Shown here piece by piece: positions 2,375 through 34,930 of a stretch of DNA of 36,255 nt (the stretch's first letter is position 1; each line of letters starts with the position of its first letter). Origin of the DNA: Bacilli bacterium (GTDB lineage: Bacteria > Bacillota_I > Bacilli_A > RF39 > UBA660); assembly GCA_017512495.1 (NCBI GenBank), contig JAFWGF010000012.1, positions 1 through 36,255 of the forward strand, written 5' to 3'. Below the pieces are notes generated by a model. That model was not told the origin of the DNA. It made no database searches and was given only the letters and a program-made list of their open reading frames with translations. Both the position numbers and the translations under genes were made by a program.

Positions 2375-2401
2375 CAAAAAAAGTCAAGCTATTCTTGACT
2401 T
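2375..2401 (-). terminator. terminator of surface-protein copy C
   Basis: Perfect stem AAGTCAAG / CTTGACTT (2381-2388 and 2394-2401) with a 5-nt loop, followed on the minus strand by a T run (plus-strand A run 2375-2382). It abuts the stop codon of the gene at 2401-3699. Confidence 0.8.
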
Positions 2402-3699
2402 TAACCAATTCTAAAAGCAGGTGATATATAATTAGTAACATCAGCAGTACTATCGCCCCAATGACCAGTATCATTTACTCTCATAAAATCATCTTTATCA
2501 TCATTGTCAGCTGTACGTAACCACCAATTCTTAGTATTGCCATTATACTTCTTTATAGCTCCATTATTACTGTCTGTTCTAATTCCTTGAGCTTTATAAT
2601 AATCTAGTTGTCTAGTTTCTACTTCTGCCGTATCTCTATCACAAACATTAGTTGTTCCTTCTTTTCCCCAAACTTCTTTTGTTGATAAAAGATATAGTTT
2701 ATCAGTAGTTATAAAATTACTCTCTCCAGATTTTTTTCCATGACCTGATACTACATAAGTATCAATAATATTATTTCTAATAATTTCTGGTATCAAATTA
2801 TACACTGTACTATTTAAATAAGTACGAAGTTCAGCAGCTTCCCAACCACCTTCATTAGTTTCAGAAGAATTCATTTTTTGTTCATCAATAATATCTGCAA
2901 ATTCAAAGACTATTCCACAAGCTGTTTGAGAAAAGCCACTATTTGAACACTCACTCGGAGTTGATGTATTAGCAATTCTTAATGTATGTACTCCTAATGT
3001 TCCCAAATTAACTTCTTTACTAGCTCCGACAGTGTAATAATCCGGTATTCTATTAGTCTTTATATTTTCAATAATATTTTCCCATGATTCATTAGAAAAA
3101 GAATGTTCAACATCAATGGCTGTTTCATCTGCTTGTGTATAAGTCATTGTAAACTCAATAGTAAATTGTTGATCTTCTGTTGGATAATTTGTTTTATCAG
3201 AGTTTTCTATATAACTAAATCTTACTTTTATGGTTTCTGATGTTCCTTGCTTTAATTCTTGTTTATTTTCTAAAGAAGTTCCATCACTATAGACAATTGT
3301 ATATTCTAAGTATTTCTTTTGCGCCGTAGTTAGCGTTGGACTAATAGAAAAACTATCTATCATTGCATCCATTGTCCCTTGATTTGTTACATCTACTGTG
3401 AATTCATAAAAATCGTTTGGTTCATCTAGAGTAGCTGCGAATGTTACTGTTGTTGGGTCTGTTATTGAAGCTGCTGTTGTAGCTGTTACACTACCAGTAG
3501 TTACATTTAAATTAGTAAAATGTACATCCCATCTAGCTGCTGTTACATTAGCTGTTCCATTGATATTTAAATTACTCTTTATATAAGAATAACCTATTCC
3601 TGTACTCGCAAGCACTATGAAAAGAAGAATATAAATAATATTCATTTTCTTTTGAAATCTTATTCTCTTATCAAATTTTAATCTTCTTTTAAACGCCAT
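2401..3699 (-). CDS. SipW-type surface protein with DUF6273-like C-terminal domain, copy C
   Basis: 432 aa. Residues 1-191 are the module shared with copies A and B (basic start, hydrophobic segment about 20-36, GIGYSYIKSNLNINGTA, Ig-like region). Residues about 198-432 form a domain that resembles DUF6273: 'SWENII', 'GTLGVHTLRIAN', 'GGWEAAELRTYLN', 'DKLYLLSTKEVWG', and the end 'WWLRTAD...YISPAFRIG'. This domain is clearly homologous to the C-terminus of the protein at 29948-31261. Domains ending in WWLR...PAF are often variants of a C-type-lectin/sulfatase-modifying-like fold; that is family knowledge recalled, not tested here. The gene has its own terminator at 2375-2401 and starts 49 bases left of the rbfA stop codon. 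Confidence 0.82.
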   Translation of the reverse strand: MAFKRRLKFDKRIRFQKKMNIIYILLFIVLASTGIGYSYIKSNLNINGTANVTAARWDVHFTNLNVTTGSVTATTAASITDPTTVTFAATLDEPNDFYEFTVDVTNQGTMDAMIDSFSISPTLTTAQKKYLEYTIVYSDGTSLENKQELKQGTSETIKVRFSYIENSDKTNYPTEDQQFTIEFTMTYTQADETAIDVEHSFSNESWENIIENIKTNRIPDYYTVGASKEVNLGTLGVHTLRIANTSTPSECSNSGFSQTACGIVFEFADIIDEQKMNSSETNEGGWEAAELRTYLNSTVYNLIPEIIRNNIIDTYVVSGHGKKSGESNFITTDKLYLLSTKEVWGKEGTTNVCDRDTAEVETRQLDYYKAQGIRTDSNNGAIKKYNGNTKNWWLRTADNDDKDDFMRVNDTGHWGDSTADVTNYISPAFRIG

Positions 3700-4103: not shown

Positions 4104-6242
4104 TTACCTCTTAATTTCTACTAGTTCGTATACTTCGATGATATCTCCCTCTTTATAATCTTGACAATTTTCTAGAGTCATACCACAGTCCATATCTTTT
4201 TTAACTTCTTTCACTTGATCTTTTTCATGTTGTAGTGTTTTTACTGAACCATTGTATACTACTATATCATCTCTAATTATACGAGCTTTTAAATTGTTCT
4301 TAATCATTCCACTAGTAACATGGCATCCTGCTATTAAACCTACTTTAGAGAATTTAAAGATTTGTCTTATTTCAGCAGTACCTACTACTTTTTCTTCAAA
4401 TTCTGGATCTAACATACCTTTCATAGCTCTTTCCATGTCTTCTACTACTTTATAAATAATATCATATGTCTTTATTTCGATTCCATATTGTTTAGCATAA
4501 TCAATAGTAGAACCTGTACCTCTAACATTAAATCCAATAATAATAGCATTTGAAGCACTAGCTAATACTACATCACTTTCAGTAATAGCTCCTACTCCAC
4601 CTCTTATTACAGATACTTTTACACCTTCAACATCTATTTTTTCTAAAGCTCCTCTTACAGCTTCTAAAGAACCATTTACATCAGCTTTTAATACTACTTT
4701 AATTTCTTTTTGACCTTCTTTAATTCTTCCAAATAAATCTTCTAAAGTCATACCACTAAAGTTAGTATCTTTTTCTTTTGAACGAAGTGCTCTTTCACTA
4801 GCAATTTCTTTTGCTTGTTTTTCTGTTTCAAAAGCCATGAATTTATCACCAGCGCTAGGTACTTCTGAAATACCTGTTACTTCTACTGGCGTAGATGGAC
4901 CTGCTTCTGTAATATTTTGCCCTTTATCATTCTTTAATGTTCTAACTTTACCTGCAAAGTTACCAATAACAATTGGATCTCCTAATCTAATAGTTCCATT
5001 TTGTACTAATAATGTTGCGATAGAACCAACTTTTGAATCTTTCTTAGCTTCTACTACGGCACCACTTGCATAACGTGATGGATTAGCTTTATACTCATGC
5101 ATTTCAGCAACTAATAAAATACTTTCTAATAGTTCATCAACACCTTGTCCTGATTTAGCAGAAATCTTATTAACAATGGTATCTCCTCCCCATTCTTCAG
5201 GAGTTAATCCATTTTCTACTAAAGCAGTCATTATTCTATCTACATTAGCTTCAGGTTTATCAATCTTATTAATAGCAACGATAATTGGTACTCCAGCAGC
5301 TTTAGCATGATCAATTGCTTCTTTTGTTTGAGGCATTACACCATCATCAGCAGCTACTATAATAATTACTATATCTGTAATACTAGCTCCTCTAGCTCTC
5401 ATCTCAGTAAAAGCAGCATGTCCTGGTGTATCAATAAATGTAATTCTCTTATCATTACACTTAACAGAATAAGCACCAATAGCTTGAGTAATTCCTCCAG
5501 CTTCTCCACCAACTACATCAGTCTTTCTAATATAATCTAATAAAGTAGTTTTACCATGATCAACATGTCCCATAATAGTAACTACTGGTGGACGTTCCAC
5601 TAAATCCTCTTCTTTATCTTCTATTTCATAATTTTCAAAATTAGAAATATCGGCAGTTTCTTCTTTCTTTAACACCTTATCATAATCAGTAACAATAACT
5701 TCAACAGTATCATAATCAAGTGCTTGATTTAGCGAAGCCATTACTCCTAAACCAATTAATTTTTTAATTAAATCAGTTGGATTAATTTCTAATAAATTAG
5801 CTAATTCAGTAACAGTCATTCCTTCTTTATAAAGAATAACATTATCTGCTACTTCTGCTTCATTACTTTGAAGCTTTTCACGATGTTTATATAATTTCTT
5901 TCTTTCTTTTAAAAAGTCTTTTTTGTTGTCAGTCTTCTTTGCTTCTTTAGTTTGTTTTACTTTAGTAAATGAAGTAGTATTCTCTAAATCAAATCCTGTA
6001 TTACTAGCTAATTCTTCTGCTTTAGATTCTACTTCTTCTTCTATTCTTTGTTCTTCTAAATCGTCACTATCTTCTCCAATATAGTCTTCTTCATCTTGCA
6101 TTTCATTATCTAGTAAAGTAATACTAATATCATCTAATAAAGATTTTTCATCTTCATAATTAATTCCCACTTTATCACATAAAGCTTTTATTTCTTCTAC
6201 AGATTTTCCTACATCTAATGCATAATCTTCTAAAGTCATCAT
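4104..6242 (-). CDS. infB: Translation initiation factor IF-2
   Basis: 712 aa. An acidic, charged N-terminal region (1-~130) precedes the IF2_N domain (~135-190), then the GTPase domain with G1 GHVDHGKT (225-232), G3 DTPGH (271-275) and G4 NKID (325-328). The beta-barrel and C-terminal domains that bind fMet-tRNA follow. IF-2 places initiator tRNA on the 30S subunit and promotes subunit joining. Two ATGs in a row (MMTLED) follow a GAGGTGAG site, so either may be used. In Bacillus ylxQ lies between ylxR and infB; here only 11 bases separate them, so ylxQ is missing. Confidence 0.97.
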   Translation of the reverse strand: MMTLEDYALDVGKSVEEIKALCDKVGINYEDEKSLLDDISITLLDNEMQDEEDYIGEDSDDLEEQRIEEEVESKAEELASNTGFDLENTTSFTKVKQTKEAKKTDNKKDFLKERKKLYKHREKLQSNEAEVADNVILYKEGMTVTELANLLEINPTDLIKKLIGLGVMASLNQALDYDTVEVIVTDYDKVLKKEETADISNFENYEIEDKEEDLVERPPVVTIMGHVDHGKTTLLDYIRKTDVVGGEAGGITQAIGAYSVKCNDKRITFIDTPGHAAFTEMRARGASITDIVIIIVAADDGVMPQTKEAIDHAKAAGVPIIVAINKIDKPEANVDRIMTALVENGLTPEEWGGDTIVNKISAKSGQGVDELLESILLVAEMHEYKANPSRYASGAVVEAKKDSKVGSIATLLVQNGTIRLGDPIVIGNFAGKVRTLKNDKGQNITEAGPSTPVEVTGISEVPSAGDKFMAFETEKQAKEIASERALRSKEKDTNFSGMTLEDLFGRIKEGQKEIKVVLKADVNGSLEAVRGALEKIDVEGVKVSVIRGGVGAITESDVVLASASNAIIIGFNVRGTGSTIDYAKQYGIEIKTYDIIYKVVEDMERAMKGMLDPEFEEKVVGTAEIRQIFKFSKVGLIAGCHVTSGMIKNNLKARIIRDDIVVYNGSVKTLQHEKDQVKEVKKDMDCGMTLENCQDYKEGDIIEVYELVEIKR

Positions 6243-6253
6243 TAAGACTCACC

Positions 6254-6517
6254 TCACTTTTCTATTATTTCTTTTATTTCATCATAGACACTATCCTCTA
6301 TTTCACATTCTAATCTTTTTTCTAAGATTTTACTTTTCTTAGCTTTTTCTAAGACTTCTAGGTCTCTTTTAATATATGCTCCTCTTCCATTTAATTTTCC
6401 TGTTTCATCAGGTAATACTTCTCCATATGGAGTTCTTACTATTCTTAATAATTCACTCTTAGGAAGAGATTCTTTAGTTACTACACAAGTTCTTAAAGGT
6501 ATTTTTCTCTGTTTCAT
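6254..6517 (-). CDS. ylxR: YlxR family RNA-binding protein
   Basis: 87 aa, typical for the family. The motifs 'RTCVVTKES' near the N-terminus, 'LLRIVRTPYG' and the signature 'GRGAYI' (about residues 44-49) are clear. YlxR proteins bind RNA, and B. subtilis YlxR (RnpM) has been linked to RNase P regulation; that is family knowledge. It lies directly behind nusA (9-base gap) in the translation operon. Confidence 0.92.
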   Translation of the reverse strand: MKQRKIPLRTCVVTKESLPKSELLRIVRTPYGEVLPDETGKLNGRGAYIKRDLEVLEKAKKSKILEKRLECEIEDSVYDEIKEIIEK

Positions 6518-6526
6518 AAATACCTC

Positions 6527-7774
6527 CTATCTAAAGTTAATTCCTGCTTCTCTAGCTTGTTCTGTTGTCTTAATATCAATCTTCTTAAATTTAGTTAAAC
6601 GAGTAGCAAGACGTGCATTTTGTCCTTTTTTACCAATAGCTAGTGAGAAATTATCTCCATCAGCAATAACCATTGCTTCTAATTTCTTTGGATCAGTAAT
6701 AGCTACTGTTAAATCTTTAGCAGGACTTAACGCATTTTCAATAAATACTGCTGGATCAGCATCATATTTAATTACATCTAATTTTTCTCCATGTAATTCA
6801 TTAATTATTCTAGCAATTCTACTACCTTTTTCTCCAATACAAGCTCCAATTGGATCTACATTAGGATTTTCAGAATAAACTGCAACTTTACTTCTATTTC
6901 CTGGATCTCTAGCTACACTATAGATCATTACAGTACCATCATTAATTTCTGGTATTTCTAATTCAAATAGTCTTTTAACAAAACCATAATGACTTCTACT
7001 AAGTAATATTAACAAATTCTTTCCATTATTATCTACTTTAGATACATATACTTTAATTTGAGATCCCATCTCAATCTTTTCTCCAGGAATACAATCTTTC
7101 TTAGGTAAAATACCATTAGTTCTACCTAAATCAATAAAGTAATTATCTGTATCTTCAAGTGCTACTGTACCAACTAATAATTCATCTTGTTTATCTCCAA
7201 ATTCATCCATAATACTGTTTCTTTCAGCTTCTCTTATCTTTTGAACTACTACTTGTTTAGCTGTAGAAGTAGCTACTCTACCAAAATCTTTAGGAGTTAC
7301 TTCAGTATCAATAGTATCTCCAACTTCTAATGTTTTATTAATCTTCTTAGCATCACTTAATTTGATTTCAGTCTCGCTGTTAAAGAATGAAGGTAATTCT
7401 TTCTTTTCCTTTTCATCTTCTCCTTCTTCTGTAGTTTCTTCTACTACATCAGGTTTAGTATCTAATTCATCATCATTAGCATAACTTTCAAACAAAGCAT
7501 CTTCATATTCTTCTTTAGTCATCTTATCATCAGGTACTACTGTAAGGAACGAATATACTTTAATATCTCCTGTATCACGATCAAATACTACTTTTACATT
7601 AGTCTTAGAATTAAAATTCTTTTTATAAGCAGAAGTTAAAGCTAATTCCATAGCACTATAAACTACTTCAGGATCAATATTCTTTTCTGCTACTATATTA
7701 TCTAATGCTTTTTTAAATTCTTTTCCATTCATTTTAAATTCTTTTTCTTCTGTTTTCTTAGCCATTTTATTCAT
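6527..7774 (-). CDS. nusA: Transcription termination/antitermination protein NusA
   Basis: 415 aa, slightly longer than Bacillus NusA because of an acidic insert (about residues 110-140, EETTEEGEDEKEKKE). Domains in order are the N-terminal RNA polymerase-binding domain, S1 ('GTVALEDTDNYFIDLGRTNG'), KH1 ('IGACIGEKGSRIARI') and KH2 ('LAIGKKGQNARLATRL'). NusA controls pausing and intrinsic termination. The start at 7774 has GGAG seven bases upstream; a second ATG four codons in (MAKK) is possible. It overlaps the end of rimP by 8 bases, which suggests translational coupling. Confidence 0.96.
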   Translation of the reverse strand: MNKMAKKTEEKEFKMNGKEFKKALDNIVAEKNIDPEVVYSAMELALTSAYKKNFNSKTNVKVVFDRDTGDIKVYSFLTVVPDDKMTKEEYEDALFESYANDDELDTKPDVVEETTEEGEDEKEKKELPSFFNSETEIKLSDAKKINKTLEVGDTIDTEVTPKDFGRVATSTAKQVVVQKIREAERNSIMDEFGDKQDELLVGTVALEDTDNYFIDLGRTNGILPKKDCIPGEKIEMGSQIKVYVSKVDNNGKNLLILLSRSHYGFVKRLFELEIPEINDGTVMIYSVARDPGNRSKVAVYSENPNVDPIGACIGEKGSRIARIINELHGEKLDVIKYDADPAVFIENALSPAKDLTVAITDPKKLEAMVIADGDNFSLAIGKKGQNARLATRLTKFKKIDIKTTEQAREAGINFR

Positions 7775-29913: not shown

Positions 29914-29945
29914 TAAAAAATATCCAAATAGCTATTTGGATATTT
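29914..29945 (-). terminator. Terminator of the DUF6273 surface-protein gene
   Basis: Perfect palindrome of 28 bases (29918-29945), 12 bp stem with loop AGCT, followed on the minus strand by TTTTTATTG. It sits between the surface-protein stop and yqfC. Confidence 0.75.
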
Positions 29946-29947
29946 AT

Positions 29948-31261
29948 TTAACCAATTCGGAAAGCTGGAGAAACCCCCATAGTACCATTAGAACTGTTGT
30001 GGACCCAGTCACCAAAGTTGGTCACAGTGCAGAAACTGTAATTATTGTTAGAATTAGCCGAGCGCATCCACCAATAAGAAATTGAACCATTATTCAGTTT
30101 AATTGCTCCTGAGTAATTACTTGTTGTAACATTTTGTGAACTATAATAATCTAATTGTCTTGTATTATTATATGCTGTATCATAGCTATCTATTCCACTA
30201 TTTGTATTTCCATCTACATCTTCCCATACTTCATGTGTTGATAACAAATATATTTTATCTATTGATGTGAAGTTTGTCTCTCCACTTGTTGATCCATGTC
30301 CTGATACTACTGTTGTATTGATTATTCCGCTTTTTAATTCAGATGGCAATGCATTATATATATCACTATTTACATATGTCCTCATCTCACTTGCTGGCCA
30401 TCCTCCTATATTTCTATATCCTGTTGTTGCACCTGAAGTATATGGATTCATTATATGAGTTGTGATTATATCTACAAACTCTAAGACAAATCCACATGCT
30501 GTTTGTGAGGATCCTGTTGTAGAGCATTCTGCTGGTGTACTTTTATTGGCTATACGAAGTGTATGTGTTCCTAAGCTTCCCATATCTACTGTCTTTGTAT
30601 CTCCTACATTATAATTACTTGTATTACCTGAACGAACATTAGCAATTATTGTTTCCCATGAATCCAATTCAAACTGACTTAGATGTATTACTTCAGTTGC
30701 AGCATCAGTTGCTTGTCTATATGTTACTGTAAATTGAAATGGTAAACTTTGATTTGTTGCTGGTATTTGATTTAATTCTATATCATCTTTATATTTTATT
30801 CTTACTTTGTATGTTTCTGTTGTTCCTGCAGCTAGTAATTGATTTACTGCTAGTGGTACTCCATCAGAATAAGTTACTGTATATTCTAAATAATCTGGTA
30901 GATTGGTTATTGTTGCCCCATTAAGCTTAGATGTAATGCTGTCTATCATTCCATCTATTGTACCTGAGTTAACTGCATCTACTGTGAACTCATAATAATC
31001 TCCTGGTATATTTAAGACTACTGAATATGTTACTGTAGTCTGAGCACTATTAATAGTTGGTGTAGATGCACTTACTGATCCTTCTTTTACTTGTACATTT
31101 GCCCAATGAATATTCCATGTAGGTGCTCCCATATTAGCTGTTCCATTGATATTTAAATTACTTTGGATGAGAGCATATCCTATTCCTAGTATGAGAATTA
31201 AATTTACTATGATTGATACTACACTTTGTTTTTTTCTTCTAGCAAATTTTCTTCTTCTCAT
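29948..31261 (-). CDS. SipW-type surface protein with DUF6273-like domain and atypical 3' end
   Basis: 437 aa from the ATG at 31259-31261, behind GGAGGGAT; an upstream extension to 31312 is not supported by a ribosome site. A basic start (MRRRKFARRKKQ), a hydrophobic segment and GIGYALIQSNLNINGTA match the tandem family at the left end, followed by an Ig-like region and a DUF6273-like C-terminal domain ('GSLGTHTLRIANKSTPAEC', 'GGWPASEMRTYVN', 'DKIYLLSTHEVW', 'WWMRSAN...GVSPAFRIG'). It aligns over its full length with copy C. The last ~120 bases differ sharply from the rest in composition (see the separate entry). It interrupts the space between yqeY and yqfC. Confidence 0.82.
   Translation of the reverse strand: MRRRKFARRKKQSVVSIIVNLILILGIGYALIQSNLNINGTANMGAPTWNIHWANVQVKEGSVSASTPTINSAQTTVTYSVVLNIPGDYYEFTVDAVNSGTIDGMIDSITSKLNGATITNLPDYLEYTVTYSDGVPLAVNQLLAAGTTETYKVRIKYKDDIELNQIPATNQSLPFQFTVTYRQATDAATEVIHLSQFELDSWETIIANVRSGNTSNYNVGDTKTVDMGSLGTHTLRIANKSTPAECSTTGSSQTACGFVLEFVDIITTHIMNPYTSGATTGYRNIGGWPASEMRTYVNSDIYNALPSELKSGIINTTVVSGHGSTSGETNFTSIDKIYLLSTHEVWEDVDGNTNSGIDSYDTAYNNTRQLDYYSSQNVTTSNYSGAIKLNNGSISYWWMRSANSNNNYSFCTVTNFGDWVHNSSNGTMGVSPAFRIG
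29951..30070 (-). other. Candidate diversity-generating retroelement variable region
   Basis: The last ~40 codons of the surface-protein gene. By hand count, 54 of these 120 bases are G or C (45%), against 32 of the next 120 (27%) in the same gene. Codons ending in C are frequent (CGC, AAC, TAC, TTC, TGC, ACC, GAC, GTC, CAC), which is rare elsewhere in the window. The encoded stretch is Asn/Ser-rich between conserved WWMRSA and GVSPAFRI. NNC codons at the 3' end of a lectin-like fold gene are the mark of adenine mutagenesis. No template repeat or reverse transcriptase is in the window. Confidence 0.45.
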
Positions 31262-31300
31262 ACTATCCCTCCTATTATAATTATACATTTTTTTGTAATA

Positions 31301-31324
31301 AAAAAAAAGCATCTTTTGATGCTT
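31301..31324 (-). terminator. Terminator of yqeY
   Basis: AAGCATC / GATGCTT stem (31307-31313 and 31318-31324) with loop TTTT, followed on the minus strand by eight T. Confidence 0.85.
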
Positions 31325-32136: not shown

Positions 32137-32310
32137 TTAGTCTAACGGACACATTTTATTTTCACTTATTCTTCTAATACCAGAACCAACACTATAACCA
32201 GCATCTCTTAATAAATTAATCACATTAACAATTGCATTTATAATTGGACCATTCACAGTAGTATTACCTCCAGTTATATTATCAAGTTTATCATCACTAA
32301 TTTTATTCAT
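32137..32310 (-). CDS. Double-glycine bacteriocin precursor peptide 2
   Basis: 57 aa from the ATG at 32308-32310, behind GGAGG nine bases upstream; a longer frame reading out to 32394 lies in the other precursor gene. The leader MNKISDDKLDNITGG (15 residues) ends in Gly-Gly, the cut site for C39 peptidases. The predicted mature peptide has 42 residues, with an amphipathic middle (NGPIINAIVNVINLLRDAG), a G38-x3-G42 motif and one Cys near the end. GxxxG motifs are typical of class IIb two-peptide bacteriocins. It overlaps the first precursor gene by 4 bases (ATGA). No immunity gene follows. Confidence 0.75.
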   Translation of the reverse strand: MNKISDDKLDNITGGNTTVNGPIINAIVNVINLLRDAGYSVGSGIRRISENKMCPLD

Positions 32311-32462
32311 GCTTTGCAACCTCCAGGATTTACCATGCCGTCTATTAAACCCGCCAAGAATATAACTATAGAGGCAATAGCTATACCAGTCCAAACAGTT
32401 ACTGTTGCGCCACCTTTTATTTTCTCTAAATTATCATCACTTATTTTACTAATTCTAATCAC
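32307..32462 (-). CDS. Double-glycine bacteriocin precursor peptide 1 (start uncertain)
   Basis: 51 aa if read from the GTG at 32460-32462. The leader ends ISDDNLEKIKGG and is clearly related to that of peptide 2. The mature part of 33 residues is strongly hydrophobic (WTGIAIASIVIFLAGLIDG) with G38-x3-G42 and ends PGGCKA. The GTG has no good ribosome site, whereas AAGGTGAT stands at proper spacing before an ATT at 32451-32453. Starting there gives a 15-residue leader that lines up exactly with peptide 2. It overlaps both neighbouring genes, so expression is coupled. Together with peptide 2 it may form a two-peptide bacteriocin. Confidence 0.7.
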   Translation of the reverse strand: MIRISKISDDNLEKIKGGATVTVWTGIAIASIVIFLAGLIDGMVNPGGCKA

Positions 32463-32868
32463 CTTCCCAAATAATTTTAAATATTTTAATTAATAATATT
32501 CTTCCTTTTATAAAAACCAAATTCATTACATCATTTGTTTTAATCTTTTTATTTTTAAAGGGAAACTTTAATACTAGCTGGTAGTAATCTTTATTACCTT
32601 TATGCATTACTATTCCTCTATCTTCAATAATTTTATATTTTCTTTTAAAATCATTGAAAAACAATGTTTTATTACTATAGACAGTTTTTCTTTCTTCTTT
32701 GTCTACTACTACTAAAACCAAATCTTTTTTTATTACCAATCCAGTAATTTTAGAATACTCATTTATCTTAAAAGTATTTAGAAAAACAATAACTATTACC
32801 TCTACAATTAATACTACTAATACTAAAAAAGTAATTAATTCTTTTTTTTCATAATTTCTAACTTTCAT
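32455..32868 (-). CDS. Small membrane accessory protein of the bacteriocin exporter
   Basis: 137 aa with one membrane span (~11-31) and a basic outer domain rich in beta strands. The stretch 'KFPFKNKKIKTNDVMNLVFIKGRILLIKIFKIIWE' recalls the C-terminal barrel of HlyD/LcnD-type adaptor proteins, but the long coiled-coil hairpin of that family is absent. Its frame overlaps the ABC exporter by 11 bases and the first precursor gene by 8. A helper in secretion is inferred from position and topology; immunity is the alternative. Confidence 0.6.
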   Translation of the reverse strand: MKVRNYEKKELITFLVLVVLIVEVIVIVFLNTFKINEYSKITGLVIKKDLVLVVVDKEERKTVYSNKTLFFNDFKRKYKIIEDRGIVMHKGNKDYYQLVLKFPFKNKKIKTNDVMNLVFIKGRILLIKIFKIIWEGD

Positions 32869-34930
32869 GAATTATTCCTTTATCTAATTTTAAAACTCGA
32901 TCAAATACTTTCTTATTATTAAAACGATGCGATATAACTATTATTGTTTTATCTTGTAAATACTTAAAGATGTTTTCTAATATTTTTTTCTCTCTACTAA
33001 TATCAATTTGAGTTAATGCTTCATCAAAAATATAAATATTACTTTTTTTTATAATACTCCTTGCTAAAATTATTCTTTGTCTTTCTCCGTTACTAAAATT
33101 AAAACCATTTTCTTCAACTAAAGCATCATATCCATTACCAATATTTTTAACAATATCATCTACTAAACATACTTTACAAATTTCATTAAACTCTTCTTCA
33201 CTATAATCTTTATACAATAAAATATTATTTCTAATTGTATCTGTAAATAAATATTCATTACTAGTTACATAAGTAATATTTGATCTAATATTTTCTAAAT
33301 GATAATGGTTTATATCAATACCAGCTATTTTAATCTTATTAAAATCTACTTCAACATATCTTAAAAGCATTTTCATTAAAGTACTTTTACCACTACCACT
33401 TTCTCCACTTAGTAATATTTTTTCTCCTTGTTTTATTTCTAAATTTAAATCTTTAAACAAATATTTACTACCCATCTTATAACTCAAATTATTATAATTA
33501 ATATTACCTATTAATGTAAATGTTAAATAAAAATAATTGTTTTTAAAATTATCTCTATTAATCATAAAAATTTCTTCAACTCTATTCAAAGCTACTTTAT
33601 ATGAATTATATTCTTCTAAAATACTTATCAAGTTATAAAAACTATTATTATAATATGAAAAGAAAAGTTGATATACAATTAAATTATTTAGAGGTAAAAA
33701 TCCCTTTACAACATGATAAGATCCTAAGCCAAAAATTATTAATAAAGAAATATCATTTATAATATTCTTATTAAAAGTATATTTTTCTAAAAGTAAATTA
33801 TAAGAATAAATAGACTCTAAAAAAGATTTATAATTAAGTGAAAATTTGTCAATTAATCTCTTTTCTAAGTGACTACCTTTAACAGTATCAACATTACTTA
33901 TTCCTTGAATTAAATATGAATTAATTATATCTTCTTTATTACTAATATTCTTAATTAATTTTCTTTTTTGGGGATTTATTAAAAATTGATAGATTATTAA
34001 ACTAATAGTAGAAATAATAAGATATATAGTCATCTTTTTATTGTAATTAAACATTATAATTGTAAAAATTATGATACTTATTAAATCAGTAGAAATAATG
34101 CAGAAGAATTTATTAATAAAATTACGGATAGTATTTAAATCTTTGAATCTAGAAACAACTTCTCCAGTAGTTCTATTTTTATAATATAAATATGGAAGTA
34201 AAAGTAATTGTTTATAAGTGTTAGTTGTTACTTCATTATCAAATAATATTATCCATTTACTAAGTAGTATATTTCTCAGTAAATTATTTATATTTTTAAG
34301 TAGATATAAAATAATCATAATAGTAGTTATATAGTATATATTTTTTGTTAAATCATAATTAATAGAGTATTCTAAAAGATATTTAAAATGAAAAGAAGTA
34401 TGTATGTTTAAAACAAAAAATGATAATGTTAAAAATACTATGATGAATAATAATTTTTTATTCATTTTAAATAATTCAATAATATTTTTATAAATTATAT
34501 TTCTCTTCTGCATTATTGGTAATTTTTTAATAGGCTTTAAAAATATATAATTATTACTTGATAATAAATTAAACTCCGCAATTGAGATTATTTTCTTTCC
34601 TTTACTAGGATCCATTAAAGTTACTTGACTTTTCTTTTTATTAATTTCATATAAAACAACAAAATGTTTATAACTTTTATTCACAATAAAATGGGCTATA
34701 CAGGGTAAGTTATTTACTTCTATATTTTCTATTTTTCCTGAAAGACCTATTGCTTCAAAACCAATTATTTTTGCCCCTTCAATTAAATTGTAAAAAGAAA
34801 CTCCATCTTTAGTAGTATTTGTTATTTCTCTTAAGTATTCCTTAGATACTTCTCCACCATAAAATCTAATAATAGATAAGAGACAGCAAATTCCACAATC
34901 TTTAATACCATCCTGAAGAACTACTTTCAC
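32858..34930 (-). CDS. Peptidase C39-containing ABC bacteriocin exporter
   Basis: 690 aa. Residues 1-~130 are a C39 cysteine peptidase: Q6, catalytic C12 in 'KDCGICCL', H89 in 'YKHFVVLYE' and D107 in 'LMDPSKG'. About six membrane spans follow (~150-430), then the ATPase domain with Walker A 'GESGSGKST', signature 'FSNGERQR' (a variant of LSGGQ), Walker B 'IYIFDEALTQ' and the 'VISHR' His loop. Such transporters cut double-glycine leaders and export the peptide. The start is GTG (34928-34930), 14 bases from GGAGG, with a duplicated GTGAAAGTA at 34922-34930 and 34937-34945. First gene of the bacteriocin operon. Confidence 0.92.
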   Translation of the reverse strand: MKVVLQDGIKDCGICCLLSIIRFYGGEVSKEYLREITNTTKDGVSFYNLIEGAKIIGFEAIGLSGKIENIEVNNLPCIAHFIVNKSYKHFVVLYEINKKKSQVTLMDPSKGKKIISIAEFNLLSSNNYIFLKPIKKLPIMQKRNIIYKNIIELFKMNKKLLFIIVFLTLSFFVLNIHTSFHFKYLLEYSINYDLTKNIYYITTIMIILYLLKNINNLLRNILLSKWIILFDNEVTTNTYKQLLLLPYLYYKNRTTGEVVSRFKDLNTIRNFINKFFCIISTDLISIIIFTIIMFNYNKKMTIYLIISTISLIIYQFLINPQKRKLIKNISNKEDIINSYLIQGISNVDTVKGSHLEKRLIDKFSLNYKSFLESIYSYNLLLEKYTFNKNIINDISLLIIFGLGSYHVVKGFLPLNNLIVYQLFFSYYNNSFYNLISILEEYNSYKVALNRVEEIFMINRDNFKNNYFYLTFTLIGNINYNNLSYKMGSKYLFKDLNLEIKQGEKILLSGESGSGKSTLMKMLLRYVEVDFNKIKIAGIDINHYHLENIRSNITYVTSNEYLFTDTIRNNILLYKDYSEEEFNEICKVCLVDDIVKNIGNGYDALVEENGFNFSNGERQRIILARSIIKKSNIYIFDEALTQIDISREKKILENIFKYLQDKTIIVISHRFNNKKVFDRVLKLDKGIIHES

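Follow-up and report, generated by a model that had tools for sequence, protein, structure and literature searches.

A DUF6273 gene of an RF39 bacterium very probably ends in a retroelement variable region rewritten in trans

Background

Multiple variable regions (VRs) are present in 28.6% of diversity-generating retroelements (DGRs) (PMC6642488), and in Treponema denticola one template serves seven dispersed chromosomal targets, whose differences fall mostly on template adenines (PMC4891356). The use of dispersed targets by a single template is thus already published, as is the role of DUF6273 as a DGR target: in prophage targets of Faecalibacterium the variable region lies at the C-terminus of a DUF6273 domain (PMC11792537). 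Tentaclins likewise contain DUF6273, with a predicted C-type-lectin-like fold (PMC10743442). In the DGR of Bordetella phage BPP-1 (mtd), a hairpin is found just downstream of the VR (PMC3240598). Literature searches for DGRs in RF39 and for RUG10970 returned no paper.

Here we analyze a stretch of 36,255 nucleotides (hereafter the window) from a Bacilli bacterium of the RF39 lineage, which corresponds to contig C13 of a 1.37 Mb MAG of 51 contigs that is 86% complete. An original prediction, made from the letters of the window alone, had interpreted the 3' end of a surface-protein gene as a retroelement variable region. This reading is supported by an A-specific pattern of variation, by a homing footprint and by the occurrence in relatives of complete cassettes whose targets are homologous, and we consider it almost certain that the segment is the VR of a DGR target, written in trans from a single common template at no fewer than seven dispersed DUF6273 genes.

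Results and discussion

The target gene and the composition of its 3' end

The target gene occupies positions 29948 to 31312 of the minus strand and encodes a protein of 454 residues, with a hydrophobic N-terminal anchor segment, a middle domain common to its paralogues and a C-terminal DUF6273 domain (29954 to 30412, minus strand). The match to this domain (residues 301-453; E 6.8e-19) agrees with the DUF6273-like domain that had been proposed. The VR is situated at the C-terminus of the protein (29979 to 30066, minus strand) and is followed by a conserved GVSPAFRIG end (29951 to 29978, minus strand). Directly past the stop codon is an inverted repeat with a 12-bp stem and a 4-nt loop (29918 to 29945, minus strand; z -4.2). 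Such a repeat is seen 3' of the VR in the window and in most copies described below; it is indistinguishable from a transcription terminator, and may be a terminator, the downstream hairpin of a DGR target, or both.

The compositional anomaly on which the prediction rested is real: the G+C content of 29948-30067 is 43.3%, as against 27.5% in the adjoining 120 bp and 26.4% in the whole window, and the maximum among the 120-bp stretches of the window (45.8%, starting at 29952) falls here, with only 0.03% of such stretches reaching 45%. The excess of NNC codons is equally evident, with 12 of 42 codons ending in C at the 3' end of the gene versus 25 of 412 in its remainder. As a control we used a paralogue at 2401 to 3699 (minus strand), which has a DUF6273 domain with a C-terminus that is not a variable region; its matching end shows the normal AT-rich codons ascribed to it, with 2 of 42 ending in C and a G+C content of 33%. 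The genes at 1312-2322 and 2401-3699 are tandem paralogues with a near-identical N-terminal domain and differing C-termini that are not hypermutated, and the C-terminus of the latter is, unlike those of the VR genes, kept in another species (locus L078). Elsewhere in the window, at 32137-34930, a gene for a short peptide, whose leader (DNITGG) is of the double-glycine type, lies near one for a putative C39-peptidase ABC transporter; by eye, this resembles a bacteriocin-type export locus.

Copies in the same genome vary at template adenines

A search of the bacterium's own assembly recovered near-copies of the segment on contigs C17, C23, C3, C7, C32, C45 and C12 besides C13, and wherever the gene is present on the contig these copies close genes with the same DUF6273 domain. 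Several are less than 500 bp from a contig end, and C32 starts within a VR. The VRs of C7 and C32 are identical over ~90 bp with flanks that are 4% different (L027:1-400, L028:1-400), from which it follows that diversification is not constant; one cluster of differences lies just 3' of the VR. As these two are most likely strain versions of one locus, we count at least seven dispersed targets and not eight.

To infer the template we took five gapless copies from this genome (125 bp; columns 11-98 scored) and placed A at every column in which any copy holds A, and the majority base at all others. There are 42 variable columns, of which 37 hold A in at least one copy. Seen from the other side, 37 of the 38 A-holding columns vary, each at the first or second position of its codon, with a single invariant A, as compared to 5 of the 50 columns without A, each of which varies through one copy. 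Agreement between copies at the 50 non-A positions is 92-100%, and single A columns independently show up to four different bases while third positions stay fixed. The inferred template, with its 38 A and 50 non-A positions, is rich in both AAC and AAT; the anticipated A-mutagenesis of the template is upheld, with the amendment that its codons are not AAC alone.

Of the 38 A positions of the inferred template 15 are changed in the window copy, and of its 50 non-A positions none, a fit that is partly circular because the template was derived from the genome's own copies. Significance was assessed by a hypergeometric test on copies outside the inference: two copies from genome G034, which belongs to another species of the genus, each differ at 19/38 A and 0/50 non-A positions (p ~4e-9 each). 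Similarly, one copy from G015 differs at 18/38 A and 1/50 non-A positions and one from G001 at 14/38 and 2/50. The non-A deviations are larger in the more distant species, as would be expected if each species has its own template. A column-shuffling null for the presence of A in variable columns was uninformative, as it retains the A excess there. A-biased variation at the species level is clear.

A footprint of replacement

Among the five paralogues of the genome, third positions differ by 28% across the DUF6273 backbone, by 13% in the 29 codons upstream of the VR, by 4% within the VR and by 37% in the last nine codons. This dip in silent divergence shows that the VR was exchanged whole, from a single source. 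The replacement is more recent than the divergence of the paralogues and has a sharp 3' boundary before GVSPAFRIG, which is likely the side on which homing initiates. The originally proposed extent can be refined: the 3' end is hypermutated, with the variable segment confined to about 29979-30066, and 29951-29978 is conserved in protein with its DNA, including silent sites, not homogenized.

Complete cassettes in related genomes

A search of the GTDB collection with a template-specific pattern returned five loci, from the same genus and from related Bacilli. Locus L107 has, in order, a DUF6273 target with a VR, an Avd-like gene, a template repeat (TR) and a reverse transcriptase (RT) gene, and its target is homologous to the window gene. 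The TR and VR of this locus match at 90 of 111 columns; substitutions occur exclusively at template adenines, and the sole other difference is that the VR has an insertion of 3 nt. L109, from a contig of genome G006 of the same genus, has a consecutive array of Avd-like gene, TR and RT; L106, L108 and L110 are similar, with the RT adjoining the TR, and the RT of L108 is split over two frames. Four of the five loci are on contigs of 4-8 kb. By sequence, the L107 RT is matched best in the PDB by 8ub7 (E 5.6e-7), which we take to be the RT of the Bordetella phage DGR. RTs with 54% or more identity to the L107 RT are found in ~8 of the family's 386 genomes, in several cases on small contigs, and among 39 genomes of the genus only G006 has an RT closely homologous to the cognate one. 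The Avd-like gene of L107 and L109, coding for 180-196 aa, stands upstream of the TR and RT; the L109 protein matched no named Avd model, only an unnamed phage family, and a match to the bAvd model was obtained for the family's other DGR type. Compared with the window VR as its possible cognate, the L107 template differs at 16 of 37 A and 16 of 71 non-A positions, which shows it to be related and not cognate.

A second DGR type occurs in the genus at L092 (G018:C21:14000-20000, minus strand), where a target with a related N-terminal domain and a Cys-containing variable tail is followed by a TR, an Avd-like gene and an RT; its TR (~4277-4398) and VR (~4648-4770) match at 105 of 122 columns, with the changes almost all at template A. 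L107 has two copies (109-2020 and 5734-7645) of a segment with the target gene and the greater part of the Avd-like gene, 5,625 bp apart, with differing outer ends and an IS-like transposase in between, either through duplication or as an assembly artefact. Fragments of Avd-like genes were also detected at G018:C3:25596-25691, just downstream of a VR, and at G006:C2:97379-97633; these are possibly remnants of lost cassettes.

The missing cassette and rival explanations

In the bacterium's own assembly no RT was found with PF00078 or with the G006 and L107 RTs as queries, no Avd with the L107 Avd-like protein, and no TR with the inferred template, which at E 10 recovered nothing beyond the known copies and some short matches due to chance. 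Hence, of the near-copy with an adjoining RT that the prediction had led us to seek, near-copies differing at A are present, whereas template and RT are absent from the assembly. Likewise, G001, which is 96% complete, has four template matches and no RT match. The TR and VR patterns had no match in IMG/VR, giving no sign of a phage home. A lack of RT and TR is an outcome that the prediction had named, for a complete genome, as counting against it; here it is not decisive, because the assembly is a MAG of 86% completeness in which several contigs break off at copies. Incompleteness is the simplest reason for the missing RT, Avd and TR, and is favoured because such cassettes contain repeats and are often on short contigs; the species would then carry a cassette outside the assembled 86%, which may still be active. 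An arrangement with chromosomal targets and with RT and template on a separate replicon that is mobile or often absent, such that the population shares a diversifier of its resident surface genes in trans, appears quite improbable.

The most serious competitor is that these are orphan VRs, i.e. that a DGR once acted whose RT and template have since been lost, leaving copies that evolve in the ordinary way. The lack of RT, Avd and TR in the assembly would fit, as would the Avd-like fragments in G018:C3 and G006:C2, and Treponema denticola isolates that have targets but are without the core cassette have been published (PMC4891356). Nevertheless, we regard such a loss as unlikely: the window VR has 0 of 50 non-A differences from the template while the silent sites of the paralogue backbone differ by 28%, so that the last replacement was recent relative to the age of the paralogues, and cassettes on contigs as small as those of four of the five known loci are easily lost in assembly or binning. 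In any case, this alternative touches only present activity and is compatible with a DGR origin of the segment.

Two further alternatives dispense with reverse transcription. Recombination among silent cassettes, in the form of gene conversion between paralogues, draws on the fact that several paralogues share segments in one genome, but it would shuffle existing variant blocks rather than yield up to four bases per A column with fixed third positions, and the differences in other species also fall on the inferred A columns; it is accordingly highly improbable. Alternatively, a 3' end richer in G+C could have been acquired horizontally, or a binding loop could be under ordinary diversifying selection, and the sharp step in base composition might be cited in favour. 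However, neither predicts changes limited to template-A columns with near-frozen third positions, nor a matching TR adjoining an RT in relatives, and we give these processes practically no chance of being the explanation. We therefore retain the DGR reading.

Predicted fold and role of the target protein

The last 250 residues were modelled with AlphaFold (pLDDT 72, pTM 0.77). The best fold match of the model is to the IgA peptidase of Thomasclavelia ramosa, in its N-terminal part, with Z 13.7 and 3.2 A over 182 residues. Residues 32-283 of PDB 9qa6, from this peptidase, have the same predicted fold as the DUF6273 region of the target. Most of the remaining matches are C-type lectin domains with Z 4-6, individually weak and nearly uniform. 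The modelled C-terminus thus resembles C-type-lectin-like domains, in agreement with published DUF6273 models (PMC10743442). Searching the PDB by profile and by sequence, with the DUF6273 alignment and the Avd-like protein as queries, gave no match. The hydrophobic N-terminal segment suggests membrane anchoring; the protein would presumably be displayed on the surface, with the varied loops binding ligands.

In the mechanism that we propose, a template-repeat RNA with ~38 adenines in AAY codons would be copied by an error-prone RT with an Avd-type partner, with adenines giving rise to any base during copying. The cDNA would then replace the matching end of the target gene, in trans, at each of at least seven dispersed DUF6273 genes, and would thereby vary the binding loops of the product, in all likelihood a lectin-like binding protein anchored in the membrane.

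Implications and comparison with known systems

These observations add a small-genome, apparently uncultured lineage of Bacilli to the cases of DGR diversification of many cell-surface proteins at once. They also illustrate that, where a MAG lacks the cassette, paralogues by themselves suffice for recognizing VRs and reconstructing the template; this genome would be missed by searches that begin with the RT.

With Bordetella phage BPP-1 the window VR shares A-specific replacement from a template, and the inverted repeat 3' of the VR may correspond to the phage hairpin. It differs in that the species has multiple targets in trans instead of a phage tail protein, and in that the inverted repeat is A+T-rich with a loop that is not of the GRNA type. 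The likeness to the Faecalibacterium prophage targets and tentaclins lies in the variable region inside DUF6273 and in the C-terminal end, which is shared with Faecalibacterium proteins; in contrast to those phage-encoded proteins, the genes described here look chromosomal by their neighbours and encode anchored proteins. The target domain of the Treponema denticola DGR is not known to be DUF6273. It is to this system that the arrangement inferred for the window species is comparable in having one template for several scattered targets, the differences being that Treponema belongs to another lineage and has its TR and RT in the same genome, where the assembly of the window species has neither.
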